From a virus, in the IMG/VR virus record IMGVR_UViG_3300007512_001412, positions 1 to 64,000 of that record: DNA of 64,000 bases; one strand, given 5' to 3'. The position numbers and the translations under genes are program-made. A model generated the notes under the pieces. It searched no databases and was not told the DNA's origin. It was given only the letters and a program-made list of their open reading frames with translations. Shown in pieces: positions 9,594-52,267 of the stretch (its first letter is position 1; every line of letters starts with the position of its first letter).

Positions 9594-12500
9594 ATGGCAA
9601 CCGATGTGATCCTCACCGAAGCGGACGGGCGGAAGTTTCTGACGCGAACGATGGGGCGCAGGATTCACTCCAGCCGCCTCGTCGCAATGGCCGACGAGGT
9701 CGTCGCCTCCCTGCTCATGGACGACATGGTCGCGGAGTTGATGGAGGGGAGCGGTAGCGACCCGGACGAGTGGGAGGGGTGCAACCACCTGATCTTCTGC
9801 GACGTCCTCGCACTCCAGGCGTTCGGCGTCGTGGAGTACGCCATGTACTACGCCCGCGCGTACGGCGCGTACGACGCGATGCGCGAGCTTCGGGAAGCCG
9901 GCGAAGGCGGCATGGCGCTGGCGCTGGAGTTGCAGGCGTGGGGCCTCTACCCGAAGACGGAGTGCATCATCGCGGAAGTCCTGGGCCTCGCCCGGTGCCA
10001 CCGTCCTTCGGTCGGCGCGAGCGGCGGTCCGGGCACCCCCCACGTGTTGGGGTGGGCGGCGGAAGACGCCATGATCCCGGTCGGGACGGACCCCCGCTAC
10101 ACCCCCGTCGTGGAGTACCTGCACCAATCCCTGCGGGACAACGCCCCGCCCCCCGACCCGAAGGGGATGGAGCACGCGGTCCTGTCGTACCCGTACGCGA
10201 AGGTGCGCCCGGTCAATCGGCTGTGGAGCGAAGCCCACTGGCGCGAGGCGATCGATCGCTGCGCGGTGATCAACGCGACGACCACCAGCAAAGCCGACGA
10301 CATGAAGACGATCGGCAACGAATTCAACGACGGGGCGATCAACGTCCTGTTCGCCAACAAGAAGGCGTACGAAGGCGTCGATCTCCAGACCCTCACGTGC
10401 GGACTGCACCACCTCGATCTGCCCTGGGAGCCGGGGACGTACACGCAGCGCAACGGACGCGCGGTGCGCCAGGGGTCGAAGCGCGACGTCGTCCAGATCC
10501 ACGCCTACCTGACGAGCGGGACGGTGGACTACTACCGCTTGGGGCGCATGGAGGGCCGGCGCAACTGGCTGGAATCCGTCATGGACGGCGGGCGCGCGTC
10601 GGCGGCGTCCGGGCTCACCGAAGACGACATGATCTCCATGATCGTCGGCTGCACCCTCCCCGCGCAGCAGAGCGCGGTCCGGGCTCGCCTGGAAGCCCGC
10701 GTGGCGCAGTTGAAGCGACAGCGGGCGCAGCAGAAGGCGGGTCTGATCCAGGCGATCGTCTTCGGGTACATCCAGTTGGGGTCCACGCTGCGCTGCAACT
10801 CCCTCCCCGGAGAGGACGCTTCGCCGTACCTCGTCGGCAAGATCAAGGAGGCGGGGAGGAAGCCCGCCGAGTTGAAGAAGAACGACGTCGCGGCGATCTA
10901 CACGTTCGCGGACGCCTTGATCCGCACGGTCCGCTGCGACGTGGACACGAAGACCGTGGGTCGGTGGACGGCAGACAACCGATCCGTGCAGATCACGAAG
11001 GTCGAGCGCGTCCGGGGCGGGCGGTTCGCGGCGATGGCAAGCAGTCCCGAAGACCCGCCCCTGCTCGACGGGGCGCTCTACCACCACGGCCCCGACCACC
11101 AAGAGTGGTACGGGCGCATGGGGCAGCGCACGGGGCAGGCGGGCGCATGGGACACTCGCGTGGGTCGGCCCATCCTTGTGAAGCAGGACGACGGCACGTA
11201 CGTCCACCTGGGGTGGCGCTGGGAGGGGCGCTGGGAGGAGCGGGCGCTGGTGGAGCAGGTTGACGGCGCGACGGAGATCGAGCCCAACTTCTCCCCCTAC
11301 GCCGACCCCACGGCGGTTCCCCCGACGCTCCACGTGGCCGACTTCGACTCGATCTTCGACCTCATGGAGACATGGGCGCGGATCGGCCCCCAGGCAGCAG
11401 CGGCGAAGGTCAAGGAGTGGTTCGACGTCAGCTACGTGAACCACCGCGCCGTGTTCCCGGGCACGTGGCCCGCCCGGTACGCATGGCTCAACGCCTTCCC
11501 CGACGCCTGGGTCGAGCACCATCGCTGGGATCTGTGGGTGCGGATCGGGGCAGATCCCGACCTCCTCGATTTCGTGTCGGTGCTCCCCTACGTGACCGAC
11601 ACGGACTACCTCCACGACGGGCTCCGAATCATCGACACGGAGGCGTCGATCCCCAACGCCATCCAGCGGAGCATCATCGTGTGGCGCACCCTCGCCACCG
11701 CGTTCTACCGGGTCCGCAAGCTGCGGGGGGCGAAGCAGGGCGGCTTCACCCCGATCCTCAAGGACCCCGACCCCGACACGATCGACTGGAGCCTGTGGCG
11801 CTCCTTGACCATCACGGCAGACGGGGTCACGGTCATGCAGCGGGACGAAGGCTCACCCCCTGTCCCCGTCCTCTACGAACACCCCGGTGACCTCGTCAAG
11901 CTGCATGGCGGATCGTACGGCTCCGGGGCCAGCGAGACGAGGCAGCGGTGGCACAGGGAGATCGTGGTGCAAGTCGAGCCGCCCAAGCCGAAACCGGGCG
12001 AGCGGGCTACCCGACCTCGCGCACGTAAGGTGGATGCGGCGGAGATTCCCAAGCTCCTGTTGCCCTGCGACAGCGACTTCCGCGTGTTCATGCTCGCCCT
12101 CCGGGGCACCGCTGCCAAGCCCTCGACCGCGCCCAAGAAGGCGGCGATCCGGGTGCTCAAGGAGTGGTTCGGGTCCGCGTGGAGTTGGGCGCAGCCCGCG
12201 AGGCTGCTCTCCGGTTCCCACCGGGAGGCGGAGGCGCGCAAGGACAAGGTCAACATCGGCCACTACACGGGCTCCGGGGGGAGCAAGACGCCCATGTGGG
12301 GTGTCGCGCAGATGTACCAACAGGTGCGTTTGCAGGAGCGCGACAAGCGGAGGCCCGCGTGGGGCTTCTCCCACGACGGCTCCATCTACACGATCCGGGG
12401 CACGGCAGGCCCGATCGGGCCGCGCACGCCGCACACGGACTTGCACACCGTGGGAAAGGGCAACGTCGGCTTCGCCGTGACCGACGCCGTCACCGGGGAG

Positions 12501-12668
12501 GACACCGTCGTCGTCCTGTCGCAGACCGGCAAGCTGCCGTTCATCCAAAACCCCGCCCAAGCTGCCGCCGCGCAGCAGCAAGCTGCCGCCGCGCAGGCGC
12601 TCCCCCCGGAGGCGGAGCCCAACGACATGAGCGCGGATCTGGCCCTGGACGACGAGGACGAGAGGTAG
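9594..12668 (+). CDS. 1,024-aa protein with isolated SF2 helicase C-terminal lobe
   Basis: Residues about 225-310 hold an SF2 second lobe: AVINATTTSKADDMKTIGNEF, motif V NVLFANKKAYEGVDLQ, LHHLDLPWEPGTYTQ, and motif VI QRNGRAVRQGSK. This matches the C-terminal lobe of large phage/mobile-element methylase-helicase (DarB-like) proteins. No Walker A or DEAH box is present anywhere, so it cannot be a helicase alone. The missing first lobe is on the 2,223-aa protein at 45596-52267. The rest is unrecognised, ending in an Ala/Gln-rich stretch and an acidic tail. A possible reconstituted enzyme is inference. Confidence 0.75.
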   Translation: MATDVILTEADGRKFLTRTMGRRIHSSRLVAMADEVVASLLMDDMVAELMEGSGSDPDEWEGCNHLIFCDVLALQAFGVVEYAMYYARAYGAYDAMRELREAGEGGMALALELQAWGLYPKTECIIAEVLGLARCHRPSVGASGGPGTPHVLGWAAEDAMIPVGTDPRYTPVVEYLHQSLRDNAPPPDPKGMEHAVLSYPYAKVRPVNRLWSEAHWREAIDRCAVINATTTSKADDMKTIGNEFNDGAINVLFANKKAYEGVDLQTLTCGLHHLDLPWEPGTYTQRNGRAVRQGSKRDVVQIHAYLTSGTVDYYRLGRMEGRRNWLESVMDGGRASAASGLTEDDMISMIVGCTLPAQQSAVRARLEARVAQLKRQRAQQKAGLIQAIVFGYIQLGSTLRCNSLPGEDASPYLVGKIKEAGRKPAELKKNDVAAIYTFADALIRTVRCDVDTKTVGRWTADNRSVQITKVERVRGGRFAAMASSPEDPPLLDGALYHHGPDHQEWYGRMGQRTGQAGAWDTRVGRPILVKQDDGTYVHLGWRWEGRWEERALVEQVDGATEIEPNFSPYADPTAVPPTLHVADFDSIFDLMETWARIGPQAAAAKVKEWFDVSYVNHRAVFPGTWPARYAWLNAFPDAWVEHHRWDLWVRIGADPDLLDFVSVLPYVTDTDYLHDGLRIIDTEASIPNAIQRSIIVWRTLATAFYRVRKLRGAKQGGFTPILKDPDPDTIDWSLWRSLTITADGVTVMQRDEGSPPVPVLYEHPGDLVKLHGGSYGSGASETRQRWHREIVVQVEPPKPKPGERATRPRARKVDAAEIPKLLLPCDSDFRVFMLALRGTAAKPSTAPKKAAIRVLKEWFGSAWSWAQPARLLSGSHREAEARKDKVNIGHYTGSGGSKTPMWGVAQMYQQVRLQERDKRRPAWGFSHDGSIYTIRGTAGPIGPRTPHTDLHTVGKGNVGFAVTDAVTGEDTVVVLSQTGKLPFIQNPAQAAAAQQQAAAAQALPPEAEPNDMSADLALDDEDER

Positions 12669-12672
12669 TCCG

Positions 12673-14395: not shown

Positions 14396-14401
14396 GGGCG
14401 G

Positions 14402-14407
14402 AGTGTA
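14402..14407 (-). promoter_or_regulatory. -10 element for leaderless gene at 14395
   Basis: TACACT on the minus strand, 6 nt upstream of GTG 14395. It is the same hexamer and spacing as at 1734-1739. It forms a divergent pair with the plus promoter at 14444-14473. Confidence 0.5.
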
Positions 14408-14443
14408 CTCCTTGGGGGCCGTGAGGAAAATGCAGATTGCGTG

Positions 14444-14473
14444 TTGACAAACCGCAAGGCCCGCCCGTAGGCT
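14444..14473 (+). promoter_or_regulatory. Promoter with TTGACA-N4-GCAAG element
   Basis: TTGACA (14444-14449), an 18-bp spacer beginning AACCGCAAG, and TAGGCT (14468-14473). The first 15 bases are identical to the promoter at 1897. It drives the recombination/replication operon from 14505. Confidence 0.7.
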
Positions 14474-14504
14474 CGCCGTGCTGACAGAGGAACGGACGGA
14501 GAGA

Positions 14505-15485: not shown

Positions 15486-15518
15486 GCGCGGCACGTTCCC
15501 TGATGGAGAAAATTCGCT

Positions 15519-16213: not shown

Positions 16214-16238
16214 CCTTCCGGCTGGCACTGACGCTCCC

Positions 16239-18974
16239 ATGACGTACGACCCGCGCCGCGACGGAGCCGACTGCGACCACTGTCCGATGCGACGGTGGCG
16301 CGGATCGGAGTGGACGCCTGTCCCTGCTGTAGAGGCGTCCGGTCGGCCTGACGGCATCCTCCTGGGAGAAGCCCCCGGCAAGCGCGAGGTCGAGAAGGGA
16401 GCCCCCTTCGTCGGCCCCTCCGGGGCGGAGTTGAACCTCGCCCTCAAGGCCGCGAGGATGAACCGCAAGCGGTACGACGTGGACAACGTCATCGCCTGCC
16501 GCGCCTTGCTGAACCGCCACGGCAAGGACGACTACCGACTGATCGAGATTCGGCTCAAGAAGGACAAGGCGGCGGGCAAGTCCCCCGACCATGAGAAGCA
16601 CCCGTCCGTCCACTGTCGCCCCCGGCTGGATCGCTGGCTCAAGCGGTCGGACAACGTCATCGCGATGGGCGCGACGGCGGCGAACGCCGTCCTGGGGGGC
16701 GCGCACAGCATCCTCTCGATCCGGGGAGGCCCCGCGTACAAGGGAACCGCCCGGGTCCTCCCGACCGTGCATCCCGCGTTCGTCGCCCGTGCCCGCCGCT
16801 GGCAGTTGGTCTACAAGGCGGATCTGAGGCGCGCGGAGCGGTTCTTCGCGGACCGGCTGGAGTGGTCGGACGCCCCGATCCTGTACGTCCCGACCCCGGC
16901 GAAGCTGCAAGCGTTCCTCGACGTCCCCGCGCCCCTGTGGACGTACGACGTCGAGACACCGATGGTCCCCGGCCCGCTGCACGCCCGGATCAACTGCGTG
17001 GCGATCGGGCGCAAGATCACCGACGACGAGTTGGCCGAGTGGATCCCCGGCCCCGACGACAACCCCGCGTTCCCCCCGGGGGAGATCGTGGTGGTGGTGC
17101 CCTTCCGATCCATCGAAACCGGGGAGCCCGTCTACAGCCCCGCCGACCAACGGGACGTGCGTCTGATGATCGCGTCGGCGTTCACGGACGGGCGGCTGTG
17201 GTGCGGGCACAACGCCGGCTGGTACGACCGGCTGGTGGTCGAGGAAGACCTGGGCGTGACCCCGGCTCCGCTGATGGACACGATCATGCTGTTCCGCCTC
17301 GCACACAGCGAGTTGCCGAAGTCCCTGGGCGTCGTCGGCACCATCTACACCGACGTCACCGCGTGGAAGATGGACAACGAGGGGAACAAGCTGGCGACGG
17401 ACGCGCGCAGCGACGACGAGTTGTGGGCCTACAACGCGAAGGATGTGATGGTCACGGCACGTATCGTGCCGCCGATTGTGCAGCAAGTACGACGTCGGCA
17501 GCAGGACCAGCCGTGCCCCGCGCGTCCGTCGCTGACGCTCCCGCAAGCCGACCACAAGATCCAGTCCTTCTGCGCGGGCCTGGGCCGCGTGGGGCTGCGG
17601 ATCGACCCCGACGCGCAGTACGTCATGGAGAAGGATCTGTCCGCGAAGGTGGCCGACGCCCGCGCCGCCATCGCAGCCACGCTCCCCTCACGGATCAACG
17701 CGATCAACCCCGCGTCCTACCCGCAGGTTCGCAAGGTGCTGTACGGTTCGCACGGCTTCCGTCTGGAGCCGAAGTCGTACACCGACACGGGCGAACCTTC
17801 GACGGGCGACGGTTCGATCCGCGAGCACCTCATGGACTCGCGGACTCCAGGCGATGCCGCCCGCTTCCTGTGGGCGCTCCGCAACTTCCGGTCGCTGCAC
17901 AAGCGGCTGACCTCGTTCGTCATCCCGCTGCGCCGCCGCTCCGTGGACCCGGAGAAGGGCTGCGTGGACGACGACGGACGCCTCCGGGTGTCGTGGTCGG
18001 CGCATGGGACGACGTCCGGGCGGCTGTCCTCGTCGCAGCCGATGAACGTCCAGAATTGGGAGAAGATCCTCCGCACCCTCGTCATCCCCTCTCCGGGCAA
18101 CGTCCTGATCGGCGCGGACTACGACCAACTGGAGGGTCGCCTGGGAGCCGCCACGGCGGGGATCAAGCACTACCTGCGCGCGTACGACGCGGGCCTGGAC
18201 GCACACCAGACGACGATGCACCTGACGGGCGGTGACATGATCTGGAGGATGCCGGGAGCGCCCCCTCACCCGGATCTGTACTTCCGCAAGGAGTGGCCCG
18301 CCGACCCGCAGGGGCGTTGGCCGGCAGGCGGGATCGGGGGCCGCTTTGACGAGTACAGGTCGCTGAACAAGAACTGGTACTACGGGCGGCAGTACGGCGC
18401 GGGGCACGAAACGGTCTGGAAGCTGCTCCGCGAAGTCGAGGCCGACTGCCCGCTGTGCAAGGGCGCGGGGTGCGGCACGTGCGTGTCGGGGACGGTGTTC
18501 ACGAACCGCGACCTCACCCTGCGCGAAGTCGAGGAAATGGGGGAGCGGTTCAGCGAGGCGTGCCCCGAAATGGCGCTGTGGTGGGAGAGGGAAACCGACT
18601 TCTTCCAAGAGCACGGGTTCAACTACGAACCGCTGATGGGCCGACGCCGCTTCTTTGAGGATGGGCTCGACAAGGACGGCGGCTTCTGCGACGTCATCAA
18701 CTTCAAGATCCAGCCCGCCGCCGCAGCCCTGATGAATTTCGCGTGCATCGACTTGGTGGACGCGGGGGTCGGCTGCGAGTTTGAAGGGCCGGGGACCGGC
18801 CCGATCCAACAGGGCCATGACTCCCTGCTGGTCGAGGCCCCGGAGCACCGCGCCGAAGAAGTGCGCCGCCTCGTTGAAGACTGCATGACGCAGACCCATC
18901 CCGCCTTCTACGGGTCCATGCGGTTCACCGCTACGGCCCGGATCACGCGCAACAACTGGAAGGAAGTCGCCTGA
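16239..18974 (+). CDS. Uracil-DNA glycosylase / 3'-5' exonuclease / PolA-family DNA polymerase fusion
   Basis: This 911-aa protein has three parts. Residues about 1-205 resemble family 4/5 UDG: GEAPGKREVEKGAPFVGPSG, TVHPAFVAR and four Cys (CDHC, IACRA, VHCRP) placed as for an Fe-S cluster. Residues about 230-420 form a DEDDy exonuclease: YDVET, HNAGWYDR, YNAKDVMVT. Residues about 470-905 form PolA: motif A GADYDQLEGR (about 626), motif B LNKNWYYGRQYGAG (about 710), motif C QQGHDSLLVE (about 857). Motif C has HDS instead of the usual HDE. A zinc knuckle CPLCKGAGCGTC is inserted just after motif B. It probably copies and proofreads viral DNA while excising or sensing uracil. ATG 16239 is the best start; the upstream open frame crosses the hairpin. 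Confidence 0.85.
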   Translation: MTYDPRRDGADCDHCPMRRWRGSEWTPVPAVEASGRPDGILLGEAPGKREVEKGAPFVGPSGAELNLALKAARMNRKRYDVDNVIACRALLNRHGKDDYRLIEIRLKKDKAAGKSPDHEKHPSVHCRPRLDRWLKRSDNVIAMGATAANAVLGGAHSILSIRGGPAYKGTARVLPTVHPAFVARARRWQLVYKADLRRAERFFADRLEWSDAPILYVPTPAKLQAFLDVPAPLWTYDVETPMVPGPLHARINCVAIGRKITDDELAEWIPGPDDNPAFPPGEIVVVVPFRSIETGEPVYSPADQRDVRLMIASAFTDGRLWCGHNAGWYDRLVVEEDLGVTPAPLMDTIMLFRLAHSELPKSLGVVGTIYTDVTAWKMDNEGNKLATDARSDDELWAYNAKDVMVTARIVPPIVQQVRRRQQDQPCPARPSLTLPQADHKIQSFCAGLGRVGLRIDPDAQYVMEKDLSAKVADARAAIAATLPSRINAINPASYPQVRKVLYGSHGFRLEPKSYTDTGEPSTGDGSIREHLMDSRTPGDAARFLWALRNFRSLHKRLTSFVIPLRRRSVDPEKGCVDDDGRLRVSWSAHGTTSGRLSSSQPMNVQNWEKILRTLVIPSPGNVLIGADYDQLEGRLGAATAGIKHYLRAYDAGLDAHQTTMHLTGGDMIWRMPGAPPHPDLYFRKEWPADPQGRWPAGGIGGRFDEYRSLNKNWYYGRQYGAGHETVWKLLREVEADCPLCKGAGCGTCVSGTVFTNRDLTLREVEEMGERFSEACPEMALWWERETDFFQEHGFNYEPLMGRRRFFEDGLDKDGGFCDVINFKIQPAAAALMNFACIDLVDAGVGCEFEGPGTGPIQQGHDSLLVEAPEHRAEEVRRLVEDCMTQTHPAFYGSMRFTATARITRNNWKEVA

Positions 18975-28886: not shown

Positions 28887-29507
28887 ATGAGCGAGGACGG
28901 ATCGGAGCGCGTGTCCACCGCGATCTACACGCGCGTGTCCACGCGGGCGCAGGCGCGTGAGTGCGGCACGGAGTACCAGCGGGAGCCGCTACTCGCCCTG
29001 GCGGCGACTTGGGGCCTGGACCTGACGGGAGTCTTCGCGGACGGCCCTCCGGGGGACAACGAGGACGCCTTCCGGGGCGACCTGGGGATGCCGGGGCGGG
29101 ATCGGCTCCTCGACGCGGTGCGGAGCGGGCGGTTCAACTGCGTCCTGATCTGGCGACTCGACCGCATCGCGCAGACCCCCGATGACCTGATCGACGTCCT
29201 GCGGGAGCTTGACCAGTGGGGCGTGCGCCTCGTCAGCTACAGCGAGTCGTTCGATTCCACAACGCCACGCGGTCGCGCTATGGTAGCCATCGTTGACGCG
29301 ATGGCGGATCTTCGATACCAGACCTTGCGCGAGCGGACCCAGGCGGGCTTGGATCGCAAGCGCGCGAAGGAAGTCGGCGCGGCCCCTCTCCCCACGGGCG
29401 GGGAAGCCCGGGAAGCCCTCGCGGAGCACGGCTCCGTACGCCGCGCCTCCCGTGCCCTGGGCGTGTCGATCCATGATTTCCGGGGCATCGTGTTACAACC
29501 GGACTGA
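28887..29507 (+). CDS. Small serine recombinase (resolvase/invertase family)
   Basis: This 206-aa protein has AIYTRVSTRAQA (nucleophile Ser about residue 18), VLIWRLDRIAQTPDDLI with the conserved LDR, STTPRGRAMVAIVDAMADL and LRERTQAGLDRKRA, then a C-terminal HTH (GSVRRASRALGVSIHDFRG). This is the compact resolvase/invertase plan. A usual Arg/Ser after LDR is replaced (IAQT). It may resolve dimers or invert or integrate DNA. It shares a control region with the RHH gene and is coupled to the next gene by TGATG. Confidence 0.85.
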   Translation: MSEDGSERVSTAIYTRVSTRAQARECGTEYQREPLLALAATWGLDLTGVFADGPPGDNEDAFRGDLGMPGRDRLLDAVRSGRFNCVLIWRLDRIAQTPDDLIDVLRELDQWGVRLVSYSESFDSTTPRGRAMVAIVDAMADLRYQTLRERTQAGLDRKRAKEVGAAPLPTGGEAREALAEHGSVRRASRALGVSIHDFRGIVLQPD

Positions 29508-33205: not shown

Positions 33206-34000
33206 CTACCGCACCGACCAAGCGTGGCGTCCTTCCAGGGCGCGAAGCGCCTGCCCCGTCTGCGACCCCAGGCGGTCCACCAGGGGACTGAAGGGCGCGG
33301 CTTCGATCCGGTCCGCGACCTTCATCAGCGCGTCCCACTTCGTCATGTTCACGGCGCTCTTGACGTCCACCATGATCCCGTGGTCCCGGGCTTGGAGCCG
33401 GGTCCACTTCAACGGGGACCACCGATCCACCACCGCGAGGCGCGGGCACAACGACGCGATGCGATACTCCGCCATCGTGTCCAAACCGGAAGGAAGCGCG
33501 GGCCAGAGCCGCCACTTGCACGCCTCCAACACCTCGCGCCCGTACCACCGACCCGCCCCGATCAGCCGTGTCGTCGCCTTGCCGTACCCGGACCACCAGA
33601 CGCACTTGCCCGTCTTGAGGTCCGCGAACCAAATGTCGCGGAACCCGACCAGCGGGGACGACGCCCGGGCGGCGTAGACCCGGAACAGGTCGGGGCTCAA
33701 GAAGTCGTCCGACCCGATGACGATGACGCCCGCAGGGTCCAGCGTGCGCGCTACGTCCAGGGTCGCGTTGTACTTCGTCCCCAGGGGTTGGTTCGCGTGT
33801 TCGACGTAGTGCCAGCCCGCTGCTTCGACGTCGGCCCGGGGGTCGCCGTTCGGGTCGTCCTCCGATCCCGCCGCGACGAGACTGAGGTCGAGGGGGCACT
33901 CAGGATCAGCGGCGATGCGCGCGTGGTGCTCCAGGCACGCACGGGACAGCCCGCGCCGGCCCCACAGGGTGGTGACCAGGGTCGCCTTCGGGCGGGTCAT
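33206..34000 (-). CDS. GT-A/family 2-like glycosyltransferase
   Basis: This 264-aa protein opens KATLVTTLWGRRGLSRACLE and contains GVIVIGSDDFLSPDLFRVY, the DxD-type metal/nucleotide-sugar motif of GT-A enzymes, then FRDIWFADLKTG and ALPSGLDTMAEYRIA. It is likely to transfer a sugar to a viral or host surface glycan. ATG 34000 overlaps the upstream stop (ATGA), coupling it to the large bifunctional glycosyltransferase. No membrane segment; the acceptor is unknown. Confidence 0.7.
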   Translation of the reverse strand: MTRPKATLVTTLWGRRGLSRACLEHHARIAADPECPLDLSLVAAGSEDDPNGDPRADVEAAGWHYVEHANQPLGTKYNATLDVARTLDPAGVIVIGSDDFLSPDLFRVYAARASSPLVGFRDIWFADLKTGKCVWWSGYGKATTRLIGAGRWYGREVLEACKWRLWPALPSGLDTMAEYRIASLCPRLAVVDRWSPLKWTRLQARDHGIMVDVKSAVNMTKWDALMKVADRIEAAPFSPLVDRLGSQTGQALRALEGRHAWSVR

Positions 34001-41942: not shown

Positions 41943-42971
41943 CTACGCGCGGGGCTGGCGGCGAGCGCCCTGCTCCGGGCGCATGACGGCGACCTTGGCG
42001 TAGCCGCTGGTCGCGGCCTTGGTGCTGCGGACGGTGGACTCCGCGACCTTGCTGCCGTCCCACTCGGGGACGAGGACGATGACCACGTTCCGCAGGGGCG
42101 TCGTCTTCGGCCACCGCGTCCCGCCGTCCGTGAAGACCACGGTCATCTTCGGCGCGGGCTTGATCTTCGCCGCCGCTTCCAGCCCGACGCCCATGTCGGT
42201 GCCGCCGCCGCCCTTGAGCATCGTGGTGATCTTCGCCTTGTTGAAGACGCGGGTCGCCGCCTGATGCGCCTGGGTGTCCACGGGGATCAGGAACACCTTG
42301 CTGACACCCCGGACCTTGAGCAGCTTCGCGGTTTCGGTCGCCGCGAGGCCCAGGGCACCGGAGCCCATCGAACCGGAGGTGTCCACGACGACGCAGACGT
42401 TGACTTCGGAGCCGCGCATCGACGGGAACACCGGAGCGCCCCGGTAGGACGTCGAGCGGCGACCGGGCTTCTTGTAGGTGTAGTCCTCCTTGCGCGCCGT
42501 CGTCAGCGACGTGTTGACGGCGTTCTTGAGGTACTTCTCCCACCGGACCTGCTTGGGGGACGTGACGTCGTCGGCCCACCGCTTGGAGTTGCCCGCGGCG
42601 GTCCCGCGACCGGAGCCGCCTGCGGAGGGGGCCGGGTCATCGATGTACTGCTCGATCTGCTTCGCTTCGGCGCGGCGGGCGTTCGCCCACTCCTCGTCGG
42701 TGCGCTCGATCGGGAGGTCCCCGAATTCCTTCACCGCCGCCGCCTCCGCCGCGTTGGTCGCTGCGGGGTCGCCGCCTGCACCGGAGCCGCACTCGCCGTG
42801 ACCGACGCCGTCGCCGCCGCTGCCGCCGCTGCCGCCGCCCTCGCCGGGGTCGCCGTTCTCGTCGCCGTTGCCGCCACCGTCGCCGCCGTCGCCGTCGTCG
42901 CCACGGGGGCGAAGGACGACGCTGCTCAGGGGCGTTCCGTTGGGGTCGAGAGTCTGCTGTCCTGCGCTCAT
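41943..42971 (-). CDS. vWA-domain protein, predicted MoxR partner
   Basis: This 342-aa protein has a Gly/Asp-rich N-terminal linker (GDDGDGGDGGGNGDENGDP), a helical stretch, then a von Willebrand A domain with the MIDAS motif VCVVVDTSGSMGSGALGLA (DxSxS, about residue 195), the conserved Thr/Gly segment LKGGGGTDMGVGLEAA and VVFTDGG. This resembles the vWA half of DUF2201/CoxE-type proteins that work with MoxR ATPases. The ATPase is at 8088 and the metallopeptidase-like half at 44512. Own promoter at 43024-43052; AGGAGG precedes ATG 42971. Confidence 0.8.
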   Translation of the reverse strand: MSAGQQTLDPNGTPLSSVVLRPRGDDGDGGDGGGNGDENGDPGEGGGSGGSGGDGVGHGECGSGAGGDPAATNAAEAAAVKEFGDLPIERTDEEWANARRAEAKQIEQYIDDPAPSAGGSGRGTAAGNSKRWADDVTSPKQVRWEKYLKNAVNTSLTTARKEDYTYKKPGRRSTSYRGAPVFPSMRGSEVNVCVVVDTSGSMGSGALGLAATETAKLLKVRGVSKVFLIPVDTQAHQAATRVFNKAKITTMLKGGGGTDMGVGLEAAAKIKPAPKMTVVFTDGGTRWPKTTPLRNVVIVLVPEWDGSKVAESTVRSTKAATSGYAKVAVMRPEQGARRQPRA

Positions 42972-43150: not shown

Positions 43151-44515
43151 TCATCGCGGACGTGGGAGTCGGTGGGACCGAGAGCGCCGCGTCGGATCTC
43201 CCCCAATGTACGACGGGATCTGTCCGTCGAACTGTGCGATGGCACCGTCTACGATCACGGTGCGCCCGTCGCGGTCACGGACCTCCGTCCAGTCGTGGCC
43301 GATGTGATCGACCTCCTCCTCGGCATCCTCGCTCCAGATCGGTGCGGCCAGGACGGCAAACCCGTCGAGGACATGAACAGCGTCCCATCCGTCTCTGCGG
43401 AGCACGCGGGTCCAAGCCGCCGCGTTCGCGTCACAACTGTCTGCGACGCGGCCCTGTTCGATGATGCAGGTATGAACCTCATGCCGATTCGCGGCGACGG
43501 CCTCCCGCAACGCCCGCGATGCTCCAGGGGAGACGTAGACCGGATACGCCTCGACCGACGCACGCAGCGCCGGGTTTCGGTTCTCCATGCGCGCGAAGGG
43601 GGCCTTACGCCGCGAGGACGCCAGGATCGCGTCCACGATGCTGTTCCAGTGCGCCTTGCTCGCGTCCAGCCCTGACAGCCCCGCGATGCCGCCGCCCTTG
43701 AGCAGCTTGTTGTACTTGGTGGTGAACGACTTGGGGAGGACTCCGATGCGAACGCCCCCCTGGACGTAGAGCGGGACCGACTCGGCGGCGAGGTCCAAGT
43801 CGTTGAAGTCGCGTGCCGCCAGGATGCGCTTGCGGATCGCCTCGACCTCGCGTGCGAAGCGATCGAACGGCGGCCCCTCGGCTCGACGCCCGCGCCGCCC
43901 GGACTGACCTCGCCGCGCAAGTCCCAGAGCCGCGCCAGCGGGGATCACCGTGACTTGCTGGTTGCCGTTGGCGTCGGGCTCCGACGCCGTTTCCACGATC
44001 CCGTCCTGCCCCGCGAAGGGACCGTCCACGATCGTCACGGGGTCGCCGGGGCTGTAGACGTTGGGGCCGTCGCCGCCCCCTCCGCCGTCCTCACCCTCGC
44101 CGCCTTCACCGCCGCCGCCTCCGCCGCCCCCGCCGCCGTCGTCATCGTCCAGATCCCCCAGGTCGTCGCCGCTGCCCACGATGGGCTGGCCTGCCAGGGG
44201 CGGGATCGGGGCAGCGGGACCGCCGCCACCGGAGCCCTGCGGGGTCGCCCACGGGGGCACACCGCCCGCCTGGGGCGCGCGGGACACCGTGTTGATGGGG
44301 GACGAGCCGTCGCTGCCCGTGCGGAGCAGCGTCTTGAACGACTGGCCCTTGAGGGGGCCGTCCGTCCAGCGGATCGAGAGGAACGCCGGTAGGACGCGCG
44401 TGACGACGCCTTCGCTGCCGTACCACTGGTCGTCGCCGGGGTAGAAGCCGTTGCCGATGTACTCGACCCGGTCGCCCTGGTTCACCGGGACGGGGCCGTG
44501 GATCATGTTGCTCAT
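43151..44515 (-). CDS. Protein with two KOW/SH3-like segments and Gly/Asp linker
   Basis: This 454-aa protein has an N-terminal QGDRVEYIGNGFYPGDDQWY...EGVVTRVLPAFLSIRW and a second YSPGDPVTIVDGPFAGQDGI, each with the G-D-x-V...G-x-x-G pattern of KOW-like barrels, separated by a long Gly/Asp/Glu linker. The C-terminal about 250 residues include a helical part (DRFAREVEAIRKRILAARDF) and VHVLDGFAVLAAPIWSED. It sits between the metallopeptidase-like and vWA genes, coupled to the former by ATGA, so it is probably a third component of that module. Confidence 0.6.
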   Translation of the reverse strand: MSNMIHGPVPVNQGDRVEYIGNGFYPGDDQWYGSEGVVTRVLPAFLSIRWTDGPLKGQSFKTLLRTGSDGSSPINTVSRAPQAGGVPPWATPQGSGGGGPAAPIPPLAGQPIVGSGDDLGDLDDDDGGGGGGGGGGEGGEGEDGGGGGDGPNVYSPGDPVTIVDGPFAGQDGIVETASEPDANGNQQVTVIPAGAALGLARRGQSGRRGRRAEGPPFDRFAREVEAIRKRILAARDFNDLDLAAESVPLYVQGGVRIGVLPKSFTTKYNKLLKGGGIAGLSGLDASKAHWNSIVDAILASSRRKAPFARMENRNPALRASVEAYPVYVSPGASRALREAVAANRHEVHTCIIEQGRVADSCDANAAAWTRVLRRDGWDAVHVLDGFAVLAAPIWSEDAEEEVDHIGHDWTEVRDRDGRTVIVDGAIAQFDGQIPSYIGGDPTRRSRSHRLPRPR

Positions 44516-45216
44516 GGCGTGCTCCGGTGTGCCGGATCGACCGGCGCGTACTCGACGTTCTGCTTGCCGTTGGCGTCGGGCGGGGTCGCGGAGATCACGA
44601 CGACCTCCCGGCCCTTGTACTTGCCGCGCTTCGGCTTGGCCCGGTCACCGACCGCCCACACCTTCTTGGGCGGCGGGGGCTTCTTGCCCTTCTTCTTCTC
44701 GACCGCGTAGTACAGGTCCGCGCTGTACCCTTCGGGAGCGCCGATCTGTCCGGGCTGGAGCGCCCACCGCTGGATCTTGAATTCCTCCCACACCCCGTCG
44801 AGCAGCGCGTAGAGGCGCGTCAGGTCGTCGTTGATCTCCCGATCCCCGGCGCGGTTCCACAGGACTTGGTCGTAGCCGTTCGCTTCCTGGCGCGCGGCGT
44901 GGTTGTACTTGATGTGGCCGTGCTCATGGAGCAAGTCGGCGGCGAGCGCGAGCAGTCGCCGCTTGTCCCGTCCTTCCTCCGTTTCCCCTCCGGGGTCGGT
45001 GGCGGGATCGGGGTCGGGCCACTTGGCGAACGAGGGGCGGTAGAACAGGTGCCCCTTCGTGTTCACCGCCATCGTCTTGACCTTGCCGCTGACGTCTTCC
45101 ACGAACGTCAGCTTGTAGAGGATATCCGCCGTCCAGGGCATCGCGGTCAGCGCGAGTCCCCGCGCCATCTGCATCAGCCCGTGGGCTTCTTCATCCTTGT
45201 AGTACTTGCGTGCCAT
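44512..45216 (-). CDS. DUF2201-like putative metallopeptidase
   Basis: This 234-aa protein contains LALAADLLHEHGHIKYNHAA (about residue 95), an H-E-x-x-H arrangement, then LWNRAGDREINDDLTRLYAL, the N-x-A-x-D-x-x-I-N pattern that follows the zinc motif in DUF2201_N domains. The C-terminus holds a KOW-like segment (WAVGDRAKPKRGKYKGREVV). In bacteria DUF2201 joins this domain to a vWA domain and pairs with MoxR; here the vWA half is a separate gene at 41943. TGATG overlap with the upstream gene. Peptidase activity is predicted, not shown. Confidence 0.7.
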   Translation of the reverse strand: MARKYYKDEEAHGLMQMARGLALTAMPWTADILYKLTFVEDVSGKVKTMAVNTKGHLFYRPSFAKWPDPDPATDPGGETEEGRDKRRLLALAADLLHEHGHIKYNHAARQEANGYDQVLWNRAGDREINDDLTRLYALLDGVWEEFKIQRWALQPGQIGAPEGYSADLYYAVEKKKGKKPPPPKKVWAVGDRAKPKRGKYKGREVVVISATPPDANGKQNVEYAPVDPAHRSTP

Positions 45217-45518
45217 CAGGTGCGCTCCAGCCCCTCGACCTCGTACGGGTCGGGGCGTCGGATGGTGGGGTTGTGCGCCGTGATCTCCCCGGAGGGGTCC
45301 AGCGTCAACGTCGCCTCCACGATCCACAAGCCGGTGTCGGGGAACGACAGGACGTCCCCGGTGTCGCCGTTGAGGATCCACCCCTCGTCCGTGTTGGACG
45401 CGAGGGCGAGGTCTTGGACTTCGGTGTCGAGGGCCGCGAGCAACACCCCGTAGACCACCGTGGTTTCCCCGGAGGGATCGGGAACCCCGTAGGTTCCTCC
45501 GTAGAGCAGCTTCGCCAT
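45216..45518 (-). CDS. Unknown 100-aa protein, first gene of MoxR-partner operon
   Basis: It opens MAKLLYGGTYGVPDPSGETT and is acidic and beta-rich (GLWIVEATLTLDPSGEITAH). GGAAGGAGG precedes ATG 45518; the box-containing promoter at 45538-45566 lies 20 bp upstream. Coupled to the metallopeptidase-like gene. No family recognised. Confidence 0.6.
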   Translation of the reverse strand: MAKLLYGGTYGVPDPSGETTVVYGVLLAALDTEVQDLALASNTDEGWILNGDTGDVLSFPDTGLWIVEATLTLDPSGEITAHNPTIRRPDPYEVEGLERT

Positions 45519-45537
45519 GTCGGCCTCCTTCCACGTG

Positions 45538-45595: not shown

Positions 45596-48500
45596 CTACC
45601 CGACCCCCATTCCGCCGCTCGCTACCGACTCCATCTGGAGTGTCGCCGCCAAAGCCTCCGCGCTGGTGAGCGCGGCGGCGTCCACCCCGATCCGGCTCAG
45701 GGCCGCTGTGCTCAACGCGCCGCCCGCCTCGTCCGCACCGAAGGCGAGCAGGGAGGCGAGCGCCACCCGGGTCAGAGGACCGGGGTGTCCGTCGAGGTAC
45801 GCCGCCACAGCCGGGTACGCATCTTCGGAGTCACCCGCCGCGTCGTCGTTCGCGGCTTCCCGCAACTCGTCCTCGCGGAGCAGGGGCACGATCTCATGGA
45901 GGCCCCCCGCACCGAAGGTAGCCGACAGCGTGCCGGGAGCCTCGCTGCTCCTGCTCCGCTGGACCCACTGGCGCGACTGCACCAGCGCGGTGTGCGCGAG
46001 CGAGGCGTTCAGGATGGCTTCGGGGCGCGTCCACCCCACGGGCTGTGCCCCCGTGGACTCGACCTCGTCGTTCCATGCGTCCCACAACTCTTTGTGCAGA
46101 TCCCGCACCGCCGACGCGACCACGTAGCCGCGCCACGTGGCGACGTAGATCGCGGCCTCGCCCTTGCCGGGGCGGAACGCCAGCACGATCTCCAGAAGCT
46201 CCCGGGGATGCGCCGTGAAGTACGGATCGGTGAGGATCACAGGGGAGGGGGTGCCCCGGGGGTAACGCTTGCCGTCCGGGGCGACCGGAGCCGGCACCAG
46301 GGGCAGATCCTTGGGCTCCCCGCTTATGTCCTTCGTCGGAATGTGCCGGATGCGGAGCATGTCCCGGCGTCCGTCGCCGTGCTTCGGCCACGCCACGTTG
46401 AAGGGCTGGAGGGTCTGTTCGCCCTGCACGGTGGTCGGGGTGATCGCGGCGAGCACGCCCCCGTTGCCGATGGGGAGCGCGGTCTGGAGCGCGTCCACGT
46501 ACGTGTCGATGGACGACTTCTTCTTCTTGCCGTCGTCGGCAGCGGTGTAGCTCGCTTCGGACGACGAGGCGGCAAACTCCAGGCCCACGTGCGCCGCCGT
46601 GCGGCCCATCTTCTGCATGACGCCCATGAGGTTGCCGATGTTCTCCGCCGCGCCCGTCGCCTTCGCCGTCAGCGCCGTCTGGTACGCCACGTAGCGACGG
46701 TACTGCTCCGGGGACATGCCGATCTCGACGCGGCGCGTCGGGGGTGCGATCGGCACCTTGCCGCCCGTGAACACGGCCCACTTGTTCCGTTCGGGATCGG
46801 TCGCGTCCAGGGTGGGCGCGTGCTGCGTGACCAAGCTGCCGTCGTCCAGGCGACCCTCGACGGCGTAGTCACCCACGGCGTCCCCGTCGAAGATCCGCAG
46901 CCGATCCTGCGCGCGCACGTGCTCCGTGGAGCCGTCCACGGGGATGAAGTGCCCGCGCACCGTGCCGTCCTGCCCGGTCATCGTGGTAAACACGGATCGG
47001 GAGCCGTTCCCGATCATCCTCCCGCGCAGGGCTTCGGCGTCGTCCACCGTCTTGCGGTTGGCGTAGCGCCGGAACAGGGCCAGGAATTCGTCTTGGTTGC
47101 GGAACGGAGGGACGACCGCCAGCCGCTCCTGCGGCTCCGACGAGGGCTTCGCCACGATCTTCGGCTCGATCTCCACGTACCGGCTGATGAATTCCTCCGG
47201 GGAGTTGATCCCGACCGGAGTGAACACCGACGAGTCCCGCTTCCCGGGCTCTCCGATGTACTGGAACAGGTTGTAGAATTCGATCGGGGACGTCGTCGCC
47301 GGGGTCGCGGTGAGCAGGACCACCCGCCCGTTGTTCCGCCGCACCGCCGCCGCCCGGAATTCCAACTGCCACGCGCTCTTGGAGTTGCCCGTGGTGTACA
47401 GGTACTCGACCTTGCCCTGGCCCAACGAGCCGCGCTTCTGCGGTTCGTACAGCGACTTGAAGCCCTTGTGCGCCTCGTCCACGACGAGGAAATCCACGCC
47501 GGTCGCGTCCCACGTGATCAACTCGCCTGCGGACGTCAGCGCCGGGGGCTTCGGGACGGCGGAGAGCCGTCGTCCCAGCGCCGCAGCCGCCTTCTGCGAC
47601 ATGCGCTTGCCGCTGATGCTCTCATAGTCCTGCACCGGATCGGACACCTCGACGGTGTACGGCCCCCATGATCCGTGGGCGTTGAGCCACTGAGCGACGT
47701 CCTGCGCGGCTTCGACGTTCGTCAGGGGGGACACGGCTCCGGTCTGGAGGTCGCGCGCGGCGTACCCGACGCCGTAGTAGGCCCCGTTGCGCTGCGCGCC
47801 CTTCGGCGCTTCCTCGCCGCTGCGCTTGAACGGCGGCGGCACCGGGTAGCCGTCCGGGTACTGGTTGCGCCGGCTGGGGAGGAACACCACGCCCGCGTAG
47901 ACGTCGTCGGGGAGCACGAACCGATGCGCGTAGGGGGTCACCCCGAAGCCCTGTGTCGGAGCCGGCAGGCCACTGTTGGCGAAGCCGGGGACGTGCCTCG
48001 GGTTGACAGTCTCCCCGTTCACGTCCACGACCCACGCCTTCTCCGGGGCGGCGAGGAGCCGTTCGTACAGGGCCGCGACGGCAACGTCATGGGCCTCGCG
48101 CTTCGGCTGCAAGCGATCCGCGATCCACTCCATGACCGCCTGCACGCGGAAGGGGGCACGGGGATCGTTGATCTCGTCTTCCAGGGTCGCCACGTACTCC
48201 GCCAGCGACATGCCCTTGGGGACGTCGCCAATGTCCAGGCCCGCTGCGGGCTGGATCCGGGTGCCTACGGGGATCGCCTGCGGGGCGACTCCCTGGACCG
48301 GAGGGCCGGTCGCCGCGCCCTTCTCCCACGGGATGTACTCCGTCCCCCGGGGGTCACGGAGGATGATCAGGTACGGCCCGCTGCCGTCGCTGTCCATCTT
48401 GATGACGCGCGCGATCTCCTGGCCGTGCGGCGCGTCGATGAAGACGTACTTGGGATTTGCCGGGGAGATTCCGCTCGCTGTGAGGATGGAGGAATCCCCG

Positions 48501-51500
48501 ATGTACAGCTTCTCGGACACGAACCCTTCGGTCTGCGCCGTGTAGGGCGGGTTCTCGTTCCGCAGCCCACCGGGTCGCGTGGGGGGGTTCTTCGGGTTCA
48601 GCGGGTGGAGCGCGACACGGTGGAGCGCATCCAAATCCAACGCGGATCGCGCGTTCGCCTTGGCGATCGACTCGATCCACTGGTTGGGATCATACGGATC
48701 GGGGTAGCGCAGGACGACCCAGGTCTTCGTGTTGCCGCTCCGTCGCTGCGCCGATCTCAAGTCGGGGCGGCCGGTTGCTTCAAGTCCCCGGGGCTGGTGC
48801 CCCGACGCGACGTACTTCACGGCGAAGCCGCTCTCTCTCACCCCGGCGAACGTGGTGGGAGAGCCAAGGGGCTGCGTGGTGACGGTTTCCTTCGCCAGCA
48901 GCCCCAGGAGCGCCTTCGACGCCCGAATGAGGCGTTCCCGCAACTCGTAGCCTTCGGTGTAGCCCACCGACGTCGTCACGGCGCGGCCGCTCGCGGACTT
49001 GCGGCCCGTGTCGATGTTGATCGACTTGAACAGGCTCTCCTCGATGGACTGGAGGATCGCGGGGGTAGCGAGCACGTGCTCCCGCACGGACGCATCGTCC
49101 AGGGGGAGCGCGTCGAGGCGGGACGCGGGGACGAACACCGCGTCGAAGCGCCCGGAGCGGAATTCCGCCCACTTGTCCGCGACCTCCGTGGGGGTTTCAT
49201 CCTCCGCCTTGAGTGGAGGCGGGGCCTGCGTCTTGCGGATCGGGGTGCCGTCGTCCTTGGTCCCGACCGTGTAGACGCCGCCGTGCAGCGCGATGAATTC
49301 GCCTTCCCGGCGCGACATTTCCGTCGCCACGCGGCGCACCTCGATGGCGTAGAGCGTGGGGTCAGCCTTGAGGTCCGCGATCGTCGCCTTGAATTCCACG
49401 CGGGAGACAGCCTTCCTGGCAGGCTTCCCCTTGCTCACGACGGTGACCGGCTTGACCTGGGATCGGACCCCCTTGTTCCCCGCCGCGACCGCCGCTTCGG
49501 TGCGCCGGAAGGCTTCGTGGAACAACTCCTGCGCCAACCGCACGGAGCGGAGCCGCAGCGGGTGTCGCTTCGCGCGCTTGTTCGGGATCTTGGTCGGGGG
49601 TCGGTACTTCTTGCCGATGATCTCGACCCGGTAGTCGGGAAACTGCTTGAGCAGATCCGCCGTCCACTTCGGGATCAGCGTGTTGGGGACGACGAACACC
49701 GGGCGCTTGGCAAGGCCCCGCTGCTTGGCGTACGCCATCGCCAGGATCGCCACGTTGGTCTTGCCGACGCCGACGCCCATCGCCAGGAGCCCGCCGCCTT
49801 CCTCGACCAGACGGCGCGCGCCCGCCGACTGGTAGGGGTACGGGGCCATCTTGTTCGACGTGCCGTCCGGGCCGACGCCTTCATAGTCGTCCTTGGTCAC
49901 CGGCCCCGCCCGGACCAGCCCCTCCGCGACGTTGTCCGTGTCGTACTCGGGCAGGACGTAGCTGCGCCAGCGCACGTTGTACGCATGGACGACCTGACGT
50001 CGGTGCTCGACGCCCTGGTCGGAGTCGAGGAAGGAGAGCAGGGAGGTGTTGAACCCGGAGGCGTACGCTTCCCGCTGCGCGTCCTTCCGCTTCGCCGTGA
50101 TCATGGACACGGCAGCACCGATCCGCCGTGGCAGATCCGTGGGGGGGATCGAGGGGAACATCGCGCTCAGGTTGGCCCAATCCTGCTGCGTCTTGTTCGG
50201 CCTACAGATATCCGCGAGGTCGCCCAACGTCCACGTGTGGCCCGCCTGGACCGCCACGTTCCCCAGGAGAGCCTGGAGGGTCGCTTCTCCTTCGGGCCAC
50301 AACTCCGCGCGCCATCCCGGCCCCTTCATGCGCGAGAGGACCGGGACCGACGTCAGTGCGTTGGGGCTGAAACAGGAAACGTCGCTGTTGAGGTAGCCCA
50401 GGAGGTAGCGGGTCCGGTGGCTGATCGAGTTCTGGTAGCCGCTCTCCCACGCGGACTTCGACGCGAGGGCTGCGTACGGGATCAACGCGAACACGTACAC
50501 CCGATCCCCGGGCTGGTAGGCCGCGTCCGGGTTCAACTCCCGAAGCTCGCGCAGCGGCATCCGGTAGGAGGCCGCGATGCTCTCCGGGGTGTCCCCCTGC
50601 TCGACGGTGTAGGGGCGCTCCCACGCCAGGGACGTAGCGAACATGCCGCGCCGCAGGCGCACGCGCACGGGCGCGTAGTCCCTGCCCGTGTTCTCCGCGT
50701 CCCTGATCTCCCCGAAGTCCCTGATCCGCTTGTACGTCCACACGTCCACGTAGCCCTTGCCCGTCCTGTACAGGTCTTCTTCGGTCAGAACCGGGGCGGC
50801 GTCGGGGAGCCAGTAGTCGAGGCGCTTGTTGTGCGGCGGGGACAGGGCTTCCCCGGTGGGGACGTCTTCGGGGACGTCCTCCGTGTCGAAGGTGTAGTCG
50901 GTCCCCAAGGTGGTCTTCGACCAGTCGCCGGGGTGCGGGATCTGCACGTACTGGTTGATCCAGGCGTTGAGCGTTTCCACCGGGAGGTACGTGTCGCGGA
51001 CGTCGAGCGCCGGGGCCAGATCCTCCGCCCAATCGGCGTCCCGCGTGTACCCGGCAAACTCGTCGTGCTGCACCATCCCCGCCGTGTAGAGGAACGCGGG
51101 GAGCGCGGGGATCGGCGGGGGCTCACCCGCTGCCAGCACCGTGTCCAGCCGCGTCTTCTTGTTCGTCAGGAGCCGGGAGTAGTAGTCCCGCGTGGGCATC
51201 ATGCGCGAGAGCACGGGGGAGCCGTGGAGATCGGCGTCGAAGCGCCAGCCGTGGTCGTGGAACAGGGCGTTCAGCAGGCTGGTTCCCAGCGTGTCCCGAT
51301 CCACGTCCGGGTCGGACGAGGCCGACACCCACTCGTCCACGAACGCATCGATGTACAGGACCCCTTCGCCCGCCCGGTACATCCAGAGGGCGGAGGCTTC
51401 CAGATCCTCTGCGACGTCCCACGGCCCCGGGTACTCCGTCAACGCCGCAGGCATCGTGCGGAATTCGGGGATCACGTGGCCGTTCGTGTCGAAGACGTGC

Positions 51501-52267
51501 AGGAAGGTGTCCAACTCCGTCGCCGCGCCCGGAGACAAGGCGTTCGGCCCCGCGTGGGGGTCGCCGTGGACCGTGTGCCAGCCCATGATCGCGTCGGACA
51601 ATTCGTACCAGTACGCGCGCGCTTCCTCGCGCCCACTCGCGTCGTCGCGCTGGCGGGCGGCGGCGTACCCCAGGAGGCGCGCGCCGATGACCAGGGCTTC
51701 CTCCTCCGGGTTCTTGGTACGGATGCCTTCTGCGGGTCGGACCTTCGGCTTCGACGGCTTCGACGCCCGCGACGGCTTCGCTCCCGGCTTGATCGGCTTG
51801 TGCCCGATCGCCTCGATCGCCGTGGCGATTGCGCCCCACACCGGCTTGGCGTACGCCACGTACCGGCGCAGCTTGTCGGCGTCCATCTCCATCAGGTCTT
51901 CGGCAACCGGACCCGTTCGCAGGAACAGCGCGTCGTAGCAGACCTTGATTTCTTCGGGGGACACCCACCGCTGGCACTGTTCGCCCAGGACGTTCGGGAG
52001 CAGCGTCTTGACGAATTCCTCGTTGGCGAGCGCAGACGAGTAAAGCTCCTGCGCCTCCGCCCGCCGCATCGTGACGACGATCTGGTTGAGCTTGGGGTCG
52101 GCGTACATCGAGAGGCGCAGCGGCCCCGGCTGGACCTCCGTCCCCACCGCAGCGGCGAACATGGCCGGATCATCGTGCCCCGGGGGGAGGTGCCTTCCGA
52201 CGACCGCGACCGCCCGGTTGACGACTTCGCGGACCCACGTGTCGCCCTGCTGGTTCCCGTTGCTCAC
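45596..52267 (-). CDS. 2,223-aa polyvalent protein: LysM plus isolated SF2 helicase first lobe
   Basis: GTG 52267 overlaps the upstream stop (GTGA). Around residues 550-600 lies a LysM-like motif (YTVEQGDTPESIAASYRMPL ... QPGDRVYVF). SF2 motif I is LLAMGVGVGKTNVAILAMAY (about 829), followed by PVFVVPNTLIPKW (Ia), but motif II DFLVVDEAHKGF comes only at about 1596 and motif III VVLLTATPATTSPIEF at about 1652. That leaves about 760 residues inserted between Ia and II. No motif V or VI follows; they occur in the 1,024-aa protein at 9594. Large size and LysM suggest a virion-borne, DarB-like injected protein. The rest is unrecognised. Confidence 0.8.
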   Translation of the reverse strand: MSNGNQQGDTWVREVVNRAVAVVGRHLPPGHDDPAMFAAAVGTEVQPGPLRLSMYADPKLNQIVVTMRRAEAQELYSSALANEEFVKTLLPNVLGEQCQRWVSPEEIKVCYDALFLRTGPVAEDLMEMDADKLRRYVAYAKPVWGAIATAIEAIGHKPIKPGAKPSRASKPSKPKVRPAEGIRTKNPEEEALVIGARLLGYAAARQRDDASGREEARAYWYELSDAIMGWHTVHGDPHAGPNALSPGAATELDTFLHVFDTNGHVIPEFRTMPAALTEYPGPWDVAEDLEASALWMYRAGEGVLYIDAFVDEWVSASSDPDVDRDTLGTSLLNALFHDHGWRFDADLHGSPVLSRMMPTRDYYSRLLTNKKTRLDTVLAAGEPPPIPALPAFLYTAGMVQHDEFAGYTRDADWAEDLAPALDVRDTYLPVETLNAWINQYVQIPHPGDWSKTTLGTDYTFDTEDVPEDVPTGEALSPPHNKRLDYWLPDAAPVLTEEDLYRTGKGYVDVWTYKRIRDFGEIRDAENTGRDYAPVRVRLRRGMFATSLAWERPYTVEQGDTPESIAASYRMPLRELRELNPDAAYQPGDRVYVFALIPYAALASKSAWESGYQNSISHRTRYLLGYLNSDVSCFSPNALTSVPVLSRMKGPGWRAELWPEGEATLQALLGNVAVQAGHTWTLGDLADICRPNKTQQDWANLSAMFPSIPPTDLPRRIGAAVSMITAKRKDAQREAYASGFNTSLLSFLDSDQGVEHRRQVVHAYNVRWRSYVLPEYDTDNVAEGLVRAGPVTKDDYEGVGPDGTSNKMAPYPYQSAGARRLVEEGGGLLAMGVGVGKTNVAILAMAYAKQRGLAKRPVFVVPNTLIPKWTADLLKQFPDYRVEIIGKKYRPPTKIPNKRAKRHPLRLRSVRLAQELFHEAFRRTEAAVAAGNKGVRSQVKPVTVVSKGKPARKAVSRVEFKATIADLKADPTLYAIEVRRVATEMSRREGEFIALHGGVYTVGTKDDGTPIRKTQAPPPLKAEDETPTEVADKWAEFRSGRFDAVFVPASRLDALPLDDASVREHVLATPAILQSIEESLFKSINIDTGRKSASGRAVTTSVGYTEGYELRERLIRASKALLGLLAKETVTTQPLGSPTTFAGVRESGFAVKYVASGHQPRGLEATGRPDLRSAQRRSGNTKTWVVLRYPDPYDPNQWIESIAKANARSALDLDALHRVALHPLNPKNPPTRPGGLRNENPPYTAQTEGFVSEKLYIGDSSILTASGISPANPKYVFIDAPHGQEIARVIKMDSDGSGPYLIILRDPRGTEYIPWEKGAATGPPVQGVAPQAIPVGTRIQPAAGLDIGDVPKGMSLAEYVATLEDEINDPRAPFRVQAVMEWIADRLQPKREAHDVAVAALYERLLAAPEKAWVVDVNGETVNPRHVPGFANSGLPAPTQGFGVTPYAHRFVLPDDVYAGVVFLPSRRNQYPDGYPVPPPFKRSGEEAPKGAQRNGAYYGVGYAARDLQTGAVSPLTNVEAAQDVAQWLNAHGSWGPYTVEVSDPVQDYESISGKRMSQKAAAALGRRLSAVPKPPALTSAGELITWDATGVDFLVVDEAHKGFKSLYEPQKRGSLGQGKVEYLYTTGNSKSAWQLEFRAAAVRRNNGRVVLLTATPATTSPIEFYNLFQYIGEPGKRDSSVFTPVGINSPEEFISRYVEIEPKIVAKPSSEPQERLAVVPPFRNQDEFLALFRRYANRKTVDDAEALRGRMIGNGSRSVFTTMTGQDGTVRGHFIPVDGSTEHVRAQDRLRIFDGDAVGDYAVEGRLDDGSLVTQHAPTLDATDPERNKWAVFTGGKVPIAPPTRRVEIGMSPEQYRRYVAYQTALTAKATGAAENIGNLMGVMQKMGRTAAHVGLEFAASSSEASYTAADDGKKKKSSIDTYVDALQTALPIGNGGVLAAITPTTVQGEQTLQPFNVAWPKHGDGRRDMLRIRHIPTKDISGEPKDLPLVPAPVAPDGKRYPRGTPSPVILTDPYFTAHPRELLEIVLAFRPGKGEAAIYVATWRGYVVASAVRDLHKELWDAWNDEVESTGAQPVGWTRPEAILNASLAHTALVQSRQWVQRSRSSEAPGTLSATFGAGGLHEIVPLLREDELREAANDDAAGDSEDAYPAVAAYLDGHPGPLTRVALASLLAFGADEAGGALSTAALSRIGVDAAALTSAEALAATLQMESVASGGMGVG

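Follow-up and report, generated by a model that had tools for sequence, protein, structure and literature searches.

In the window studied here, the first 64,000 nucleotides of the viral contig IMGVR_UViG_3300007512_001412 (77 kb, to position 76912; linear, and probably an incomplete record), the two RecA lobes of a single DarB-type superfamily 2 (SF2) motor are encoded by two separate genes, which lie ~33 kb apart on opposite strands. The 2,223-aa protein with lobe 1 is referred to as P0002 and the 1,024-aa protein with lobe 2 as P0001. In SF2 motors, ATP hydrolysis takes place in the cleft formed by two RecA lobes, which are normally tethered in one chain, and the SWI2/SNF2 ATPases of the DarB type translocate on duplex DNA. 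Both lobes are found in one open reading frame (ORF) in the two nearest relatives, L034 (on G002, IMGVR_UViG_3300025141_000040, 105.7 kb) and L011 (on G003, IMGVR_UViG_3300045738_001144, an 18-kb contig). We propose that the present arrangement arose by fission and inversion, and that P0001 and P0002 are predicted to reassemble as a working motor, a reading to which we assign a probability of around 0.66. The two genes and their motifs are:

45596..52267, minus strand: P0002, 2,223 aa, GTG start; an N-terminal region with a LysM-like match precedes RecA lobe 1 of a DarB-type SF2 motor, and the last ~320 aa form a tail
49757..49777, minus strand: motif I (Walker A) GVGVGKT, P0002 residues 831-837, from the translation and aligned with L034 and L011
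47468..47479, minus strand: motif II DEAH, P0002 residues 1597-1600, from translation and alignment
47300..47311, minus strand: motif III TATP, P0002 residues 1653-1656, from translation and alignment
45599..46564, minus strand: P0002 tail, residues 1902-2223, without a lobe-2 sequence match and of a length similar to the inter-lobe spacer of the fused relatives
9594..12668, plus strand: P0001, 1,024 aa; a complete RecA lobe 2 (~residues 24-345), then ~640 aa without detected relatives
9777..9803, plus strand: motif IV GCNHLIFCD, P0001 ~residues 62-70, aligned with CGHIIFCE, CGNLIFVD and CGNIIFVN of fused relatives
10353..10388, plus strand: motif V ANKKAYEGVDLQ, P0001 residues 254-265, from translation and alignment
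10446..10475, plus strand: motif VI QRNGRAVRQG, P0001 residues 285-294, from translation and alignment

Translation gives a stop-free ORF for each protein over these coordinates. The GC content at third codon positions is coding-like (0.88 in the P0002 frame and 0.91 in the P0001 frame), and the codon composition is that of the other large genes of the genome. Pfam places a ResIII match on P0002 residues 807-895 (E 4e-7) and a Helicase_C match on P0001 residues 232-294 (E 9e-8). In PHROGs, P0002 and P0001 match the same DarB-type profiles one after the other, without overlap; on phrog_11801, P0002 1577-1746 corresponds to positions 1032-1193 and P0001 221-379 to positions 1384-1541 (E 1e-43 and 3e-26, respectively). 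In BLAST comparisons, P0002 followed by P0001 is collinear with five complete fused DarB-type proteins, and on the DarB-type protein of Bordetella phage PHB04 P0002 covers the sequence up to residue 1321 and P0001 that from residue 1438. ORFs, Pfam, PHROGs and motifs thus agree with the initial annotation, which had described a pair of giant proteins with one lobe each. It had also set the helicase encoded at 6255-7802 apart as a separate enzyme, which is corroborated by the fact that this gene carries its own C-terminal domain.

Motifs V and VI of P0001 had been recognized before, but motif IV and the helix that precedes it had been overlooked. Both became apparent in the alignment with trimmed Nannocystis relatives, where the start of P0001, helix HSSRLVAMADEVVAS...CNHLIFCD, aligns with SPKLTECAKRVAAS...CGHIIFCE; the segment DPRY...HAVLSYP, which had been considered as motif IV, turned out to be an artefact of a poor alignment once the relatives were trimmed. 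Given the presence of motif IV and the preceding helix, lobe 2 is complete in P0001. P0002 can be aligned with the relatives through the conserved MSPEQYRRYVAYQ and MGRTAAHVGLE segments to around residue 1902, and alignment and profile comparison with the relatives yielded no convincing match for its last 320 residues. The profile comparison of this tail gave no lobe-2 sequence, in line with the claim that P0002 lacks motifs V and VI. A degenerate second lobe 2 within the tail (AIYVATWRGY...EAILNASLAHT) was considered and rejected, as it comprised weak profile matches in the inter-lobe spacer only. Considering that lobe 2 is whole in P0001 and that the alignment of P0002 ends around residue 1902, the cut lies in the linker between the lobes.

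The relatives L034 (3,703 aa, from the full contig) and L011 (2,685 aa) were found through the lobe-2 alignment. They share an unusual layout, in which motifs Ia and II are several hundred residues apart and motif V follows ~700 residues after lobe 1b ends; the tail of P0002 and the head of P0001 sum to ~700 aa, like the inter-lobe distance in the fused proteins. P0001 26-377 is collinear with L034 2395-2794 (26% identity, E 3e-27). More generally, lobe 1b and lobe 2 occur in one ORF in 78 of the 80 viral loci, the exceptions being one gene cut by a contig end and one frameshift. The same holds for both lobes in 14 of the 15 bacterial loci (12 of the 15 from Nannocystis or Polyangia), where the exception, L108, has its Walker A segment in a different frame. 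Locus L052 was considered as a second natural split and rejected because the gene is frameshifted. Among the strong matches in five whole Nannocystis/Polyangia genomes there was no orphan lobe, lobes 1 and 2 sharing ORFs, and a search for relatives through P0001 alone returned none. In the lobe-1 tree the window's sequence is sister to L011 and L034 (100/99), with Nannocystis adjoining, and in the lobe-2 core tree it falls in one clade with L011, L034 and Nannocystis (96/89); a lobe-2 clade of the window's sequence, L011 and L034 is not rejected (p 0.19). Given the fused state of the nearest relatives and of nearly all viral and bacterial loci, the split is, on this comparative evidence, derived from an ancestral single gene. 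The collinearity with fused homologues, the common clade and the fused relatives bear out the earlier suggestion that P0001 and P0002 are two lobes of one DarB-type motor; to the question raised with it, whether the halves always co-occur or are fused elsewhere, the answer is that relatives have the fused gene and not one half.

On G003 the fused helicase gene is immediately followed by a separate 1,085-aa ORF (L103:1648-4902, minus strand), the start of which looks, by eye, similar to the C-terminal region of the G002 protein. This resemblance suggests that break points vary among the relatives, the motor itself being broken only in the window's genome.

More than 30 genes are common to G002 and the window's genome, and the circular gene orders of the two agree over most of their length, with lobe 2 and a block of DUF2201 genes swapped in place and strand. 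In G002 the order runs from MoxR through the DUF2201 genes to the replication genes, with the fused helicase and then a structural-type module on the far side. In the window's genome, lobe 2 takes the former place of the DUF2201 genes and the DUF2201 block lies beside lobe 1, both being turned round. The elements involved are:

9583..9598, plus strand: junction; one arm of an inverted repeat of 16 bp, AGGAGGCCGACATGGC, comprising the ribosome-binding site and the start of P0001 (ATGGC)
45514..45529, minus strand: junction; the other arm, identical in its 16 bp, at the start of the gene that comes next after P0002 (45216-45518)
8088..9584, plus strand: MoxR-type AAA ATPase, directly upstream of P0001; adjoins the DUF2201 genes in G002
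41943..42971, minus strand: DUF2201 vWA-like MoxR partner, displaced in the same rearrangement
44512..45216, minus strand: DUF2201_N metallopeptidase-like MoxR partner, displaced in the same rearrangement
28887..29507, plus strand: serine resolvase; a homologue closely follows the fused helicase gene in G002 and is on the downstream side in G003

The 16-bp sequence occurs in just two copies, inverted, in the whole 77 kb, and among 3,403 gene pairs no other pair has so long a start context in common (16 bp, versus 14 for the next). Around 20 other inverted 16-mers occur in the genome by chance, and the repeat is thus notable for its position and not for its length alone. When the inversion is undone, lobe 2 comes to lie right behind lobe 1, with both in one orientation, and MoxR and its DUF2201/vWA partners are reunited. 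As the replication genes between the swapped blocks mostly keep their direction, the layout requires two or more nested inversions, or an inverted exchange with the same effect; further, smaller inversions with respect to G002 involve single genes (e.g. 33997-36126). In the eight phage records that hold both, the MoxR and vWA genes are ~1.9 kb apart on one strand, which implies that their 33-kb separation here is derived as well. A role of the serine resolvase in the inversion is possible.

In our proposal, an ancestral one-gene DarB-type, SWI2/SNF2-like DNA motor would have been broken at the linker between the RecA lobes, and an inversion ending at the 16-bp repeat would have moved lobe 2 behind the MoxR gene and, by the same token, the genes once after MoxR behind lobe 1. 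Fission may have come first and inversion later, or the inversion itself may have cut the gene. The lobe separation, its derived origin and the junction are established at the level of sequence.

With regard to the displaced partners, the DUF2201 protein is encoded in two ORFs, which are separated by a 454-aa gene here and lie side by side in G002. The label 'HNH endonuclease' given to this family in phrog_1314 looks wrong, considering the Pfam metallopeptidase/vWA match.

A misjoined contig, the true genome having a fused gene, could also account for the layout, given that a single contig covers the P0001 side of the junction and that this contig is linear and incomplete. We consider such an assembly error highly improbable: the P0002 side of the junction, with its stop and the following gene, recurs in a second contig that is 99.98% identical over 38 kb, the ORFs start and end cleanly with signals of their own, P0001 is spaced 10 bp and 4 bp from its neighbour genes, and the 16-bp repeat is shorter than the usual assembly words. 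Moreover, if the join is undone, the result is not a fused ORF but a pair of neighbouring ORFs, with a stop and a spacer.

After the separation, P0001 and P0002 would bind each other, and the interface of lobe 1 (motifs I and II) with lobe 2 (the arginines of motif VI) would be the site of ATP hydrolysis, so that a working DNA translocase is predicted to be rebuilt in trans. We consider this reassembly likely and put its chance at about two in three, chiefly on the grounds that without it one half would be expected to have decayed. The opposite outcome, a real split with a dead motor, would mean that the halves no longer meet and that the helicase parts drift; the N-terminal and other domains could then be the reason why P0002 was kept, and the new C-terminal domain the reason in the case of P0001. 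The ~640-aa C-terminal part of P0001 has no relative in the fused proteins and could hold such a retained function; for residues 380-1024 no homologue was found in G002, G003, G004, the genome's own genes or the Nannocystis loci. Nevertheless, motifs I, II, III, IV, V and VI are intact, and by alignment the conserved residues are kept in both halves at the level of the fused relatives, with 11 of 11 near-invariant columns in the Walker A segment and 20 of 23 in the motif V/VI segment. Considering in addition that the branches are not clearly longer than those of L011 and L034, a dead motor is unlikely.

Several observations weigh against the reassembly of a motor that was split by fission and inversion. 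In lobe 1b, 8 of the 24 near-invariant columns differ in P0002 (L011 and L034 deviate equally), and the branch that leads to the window's lobe 2 is long (core tree, 1.19; the L011/L034 stem measures 1.08). The contig spans 77 kb versus 106 kb for the relative, so that an intact or second copy could sit in the remainder, and the single coverage of the P0001 side of the junction counts here as well. The AlphaFold model of P0001 1-400 is poor, with a mean predicted local distance difference test (pLDDT) score of 50, and a model of P0002 1570-2223 (pLDDT 38) was not used. The order of elements in the P0001 model fits lobe 2: a strand (64-68) and helices (72-132) are followed by a strand at 223-226, with low confidence past residue 105, which corresponds to the helical insert of the DarB family after the first strand of lobe 2. 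SF2 helicases make up nearly all of the top Foldseek matches of this weak model, although no match has E <0.001.

Split inteins at broken genes are known in phages, and the halves might in principle be joined by a split intein or a trans-splicing intron. Here this is hardly credible: Pfam detects no intein domain, P0002 1750-2223 contains no cysteine, lobe 2 begins ~24 residues after the start of P0001, which is too little for a C-intein, and no Rfam family is found within the window. An N-intein ending one half and a C-intein starting the other are not present, and as far as these searches reach, the known inteins and introns are refuted as a joining route.

The separation might also represent a deliberate switch, with lobe 1 carried in the virus particle and lobe 2 produced once the virus has entered the cell, the motor being active only early in a new host. 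P0002 and P0001 indeed belong to oppositely transcribed modules, P0001 lies near MoxR, methyltransferase, helicase and polymerase genes, and DarB of phage P1 is a head protein (PMC5512222). Such a switch is very unlikely, given that no virion protein was identified in this genome and that the inversion accounts for the layout without it: a derived rearrangement is the plain evolutionary explanation for the split, and a regulatory switch is unnecessary. In a speculative and rather improbable variant, a two-key lock, the inversion would have put the lobes under different control, the translocase would form only when both are present in the infected cell, and the arrangement could still flip through the 16-bp repeat.

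A natural genome with the tether cut, the lobes ~33 kb apart and the motor residues kept provides a ready test of whether such a motor can run as two chains. Comparison with the syntenic fused relative shows, in addition, how a single rearrangement in a phage-like genome can disrupt both the helicase and the MoxR-vWA set.

Some other features of the genome are worth recording. PHROG matches are almost absent from the presumed structural module (52264-64000, and on to 76912), several of its small proteins have an N-terminal membrane-type segment, and the large terminase (phrog_2) was not found in the 77-kb contig or in the 105.7-kb relative; the virus is possibly not a tailed phage. A candidate for the major capsid protein is a 190-aa protein (L003:8466-9038; contig 66465-67037) that occurs in G002 as two tandem copies with ~60% identity to it, and to which nothing in the phage collection is related. 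A family A DNA polymerase and an N-terminal uracil-DNA-glycosylase domain are combined in one protein (16239-18974), and short, near-identical direct repeats, rich in Gly, Lys and Ser, occur at 58006-58263 within gene 57489-58328. The 9-bp tandem repeat TGGGCTCGG is found at both ends of G002 (L097 start, L102 end) in one and the same orientation, which suggests a circular or complete genome that was cut inside the repeat.

By sequence, the split motor belongs to the same family as DarB of phage P1 and the DarB-type proteins (PHROG 11801, 1685 and 10089; 'polyvalent proteins', PMC5512222), and the multihelical insert after the first strand of lobe 2 described for this family (PMC5512222) is seen in the P0001 model and in the alignments. 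DarB of P1, which is located in the head and shields DNA in cis from type I restriction (PMC5512222), is one polypeptide with an N-terminal adenine methylase, whereas here the motor is distributed over two polypeptides. The label 'methylase-helicase' of the initial annotation is not supported, as Pfam recognizes no methylase in P0001, P0002, L011 or L034, and protection of DNA by methylation is therefore not expected from P0001 and P0002. L034 and L011 have the same motif layout and large insertions and are the sisters in the lobe-1 tree, and much of the G002 gene order is common to the window's virus, but both hold the two lobes in one ORF. The DarB-type genes of Nannocystis/Polyangia (Myxococcota), the next clade out with 41-46% identity in lobe 1b, are fused with a compact inter-lobe spacing, and unlike the halves described here, L106, the one Nannocystis locus scanned, has an Eco57I-type methylase. 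Nannocystis genomes contain up to four DarB-type methylase-helicase genes each (L106-L117), which hints indirectly at myxobacteria as hosts of this virus group. We found no report of a phage SF2 motor cut between its lobes in the open-access literature. Split helicase genes as such are already known from Nanoarchaeota, whose non-contiguous split genes include a 'large helicase-related protein' (PMC3655853). As in the window's virus, a helicase gene was broken there into two distant ORFs that derive from a whole gene, although in cellular genomes and in another helicase family.

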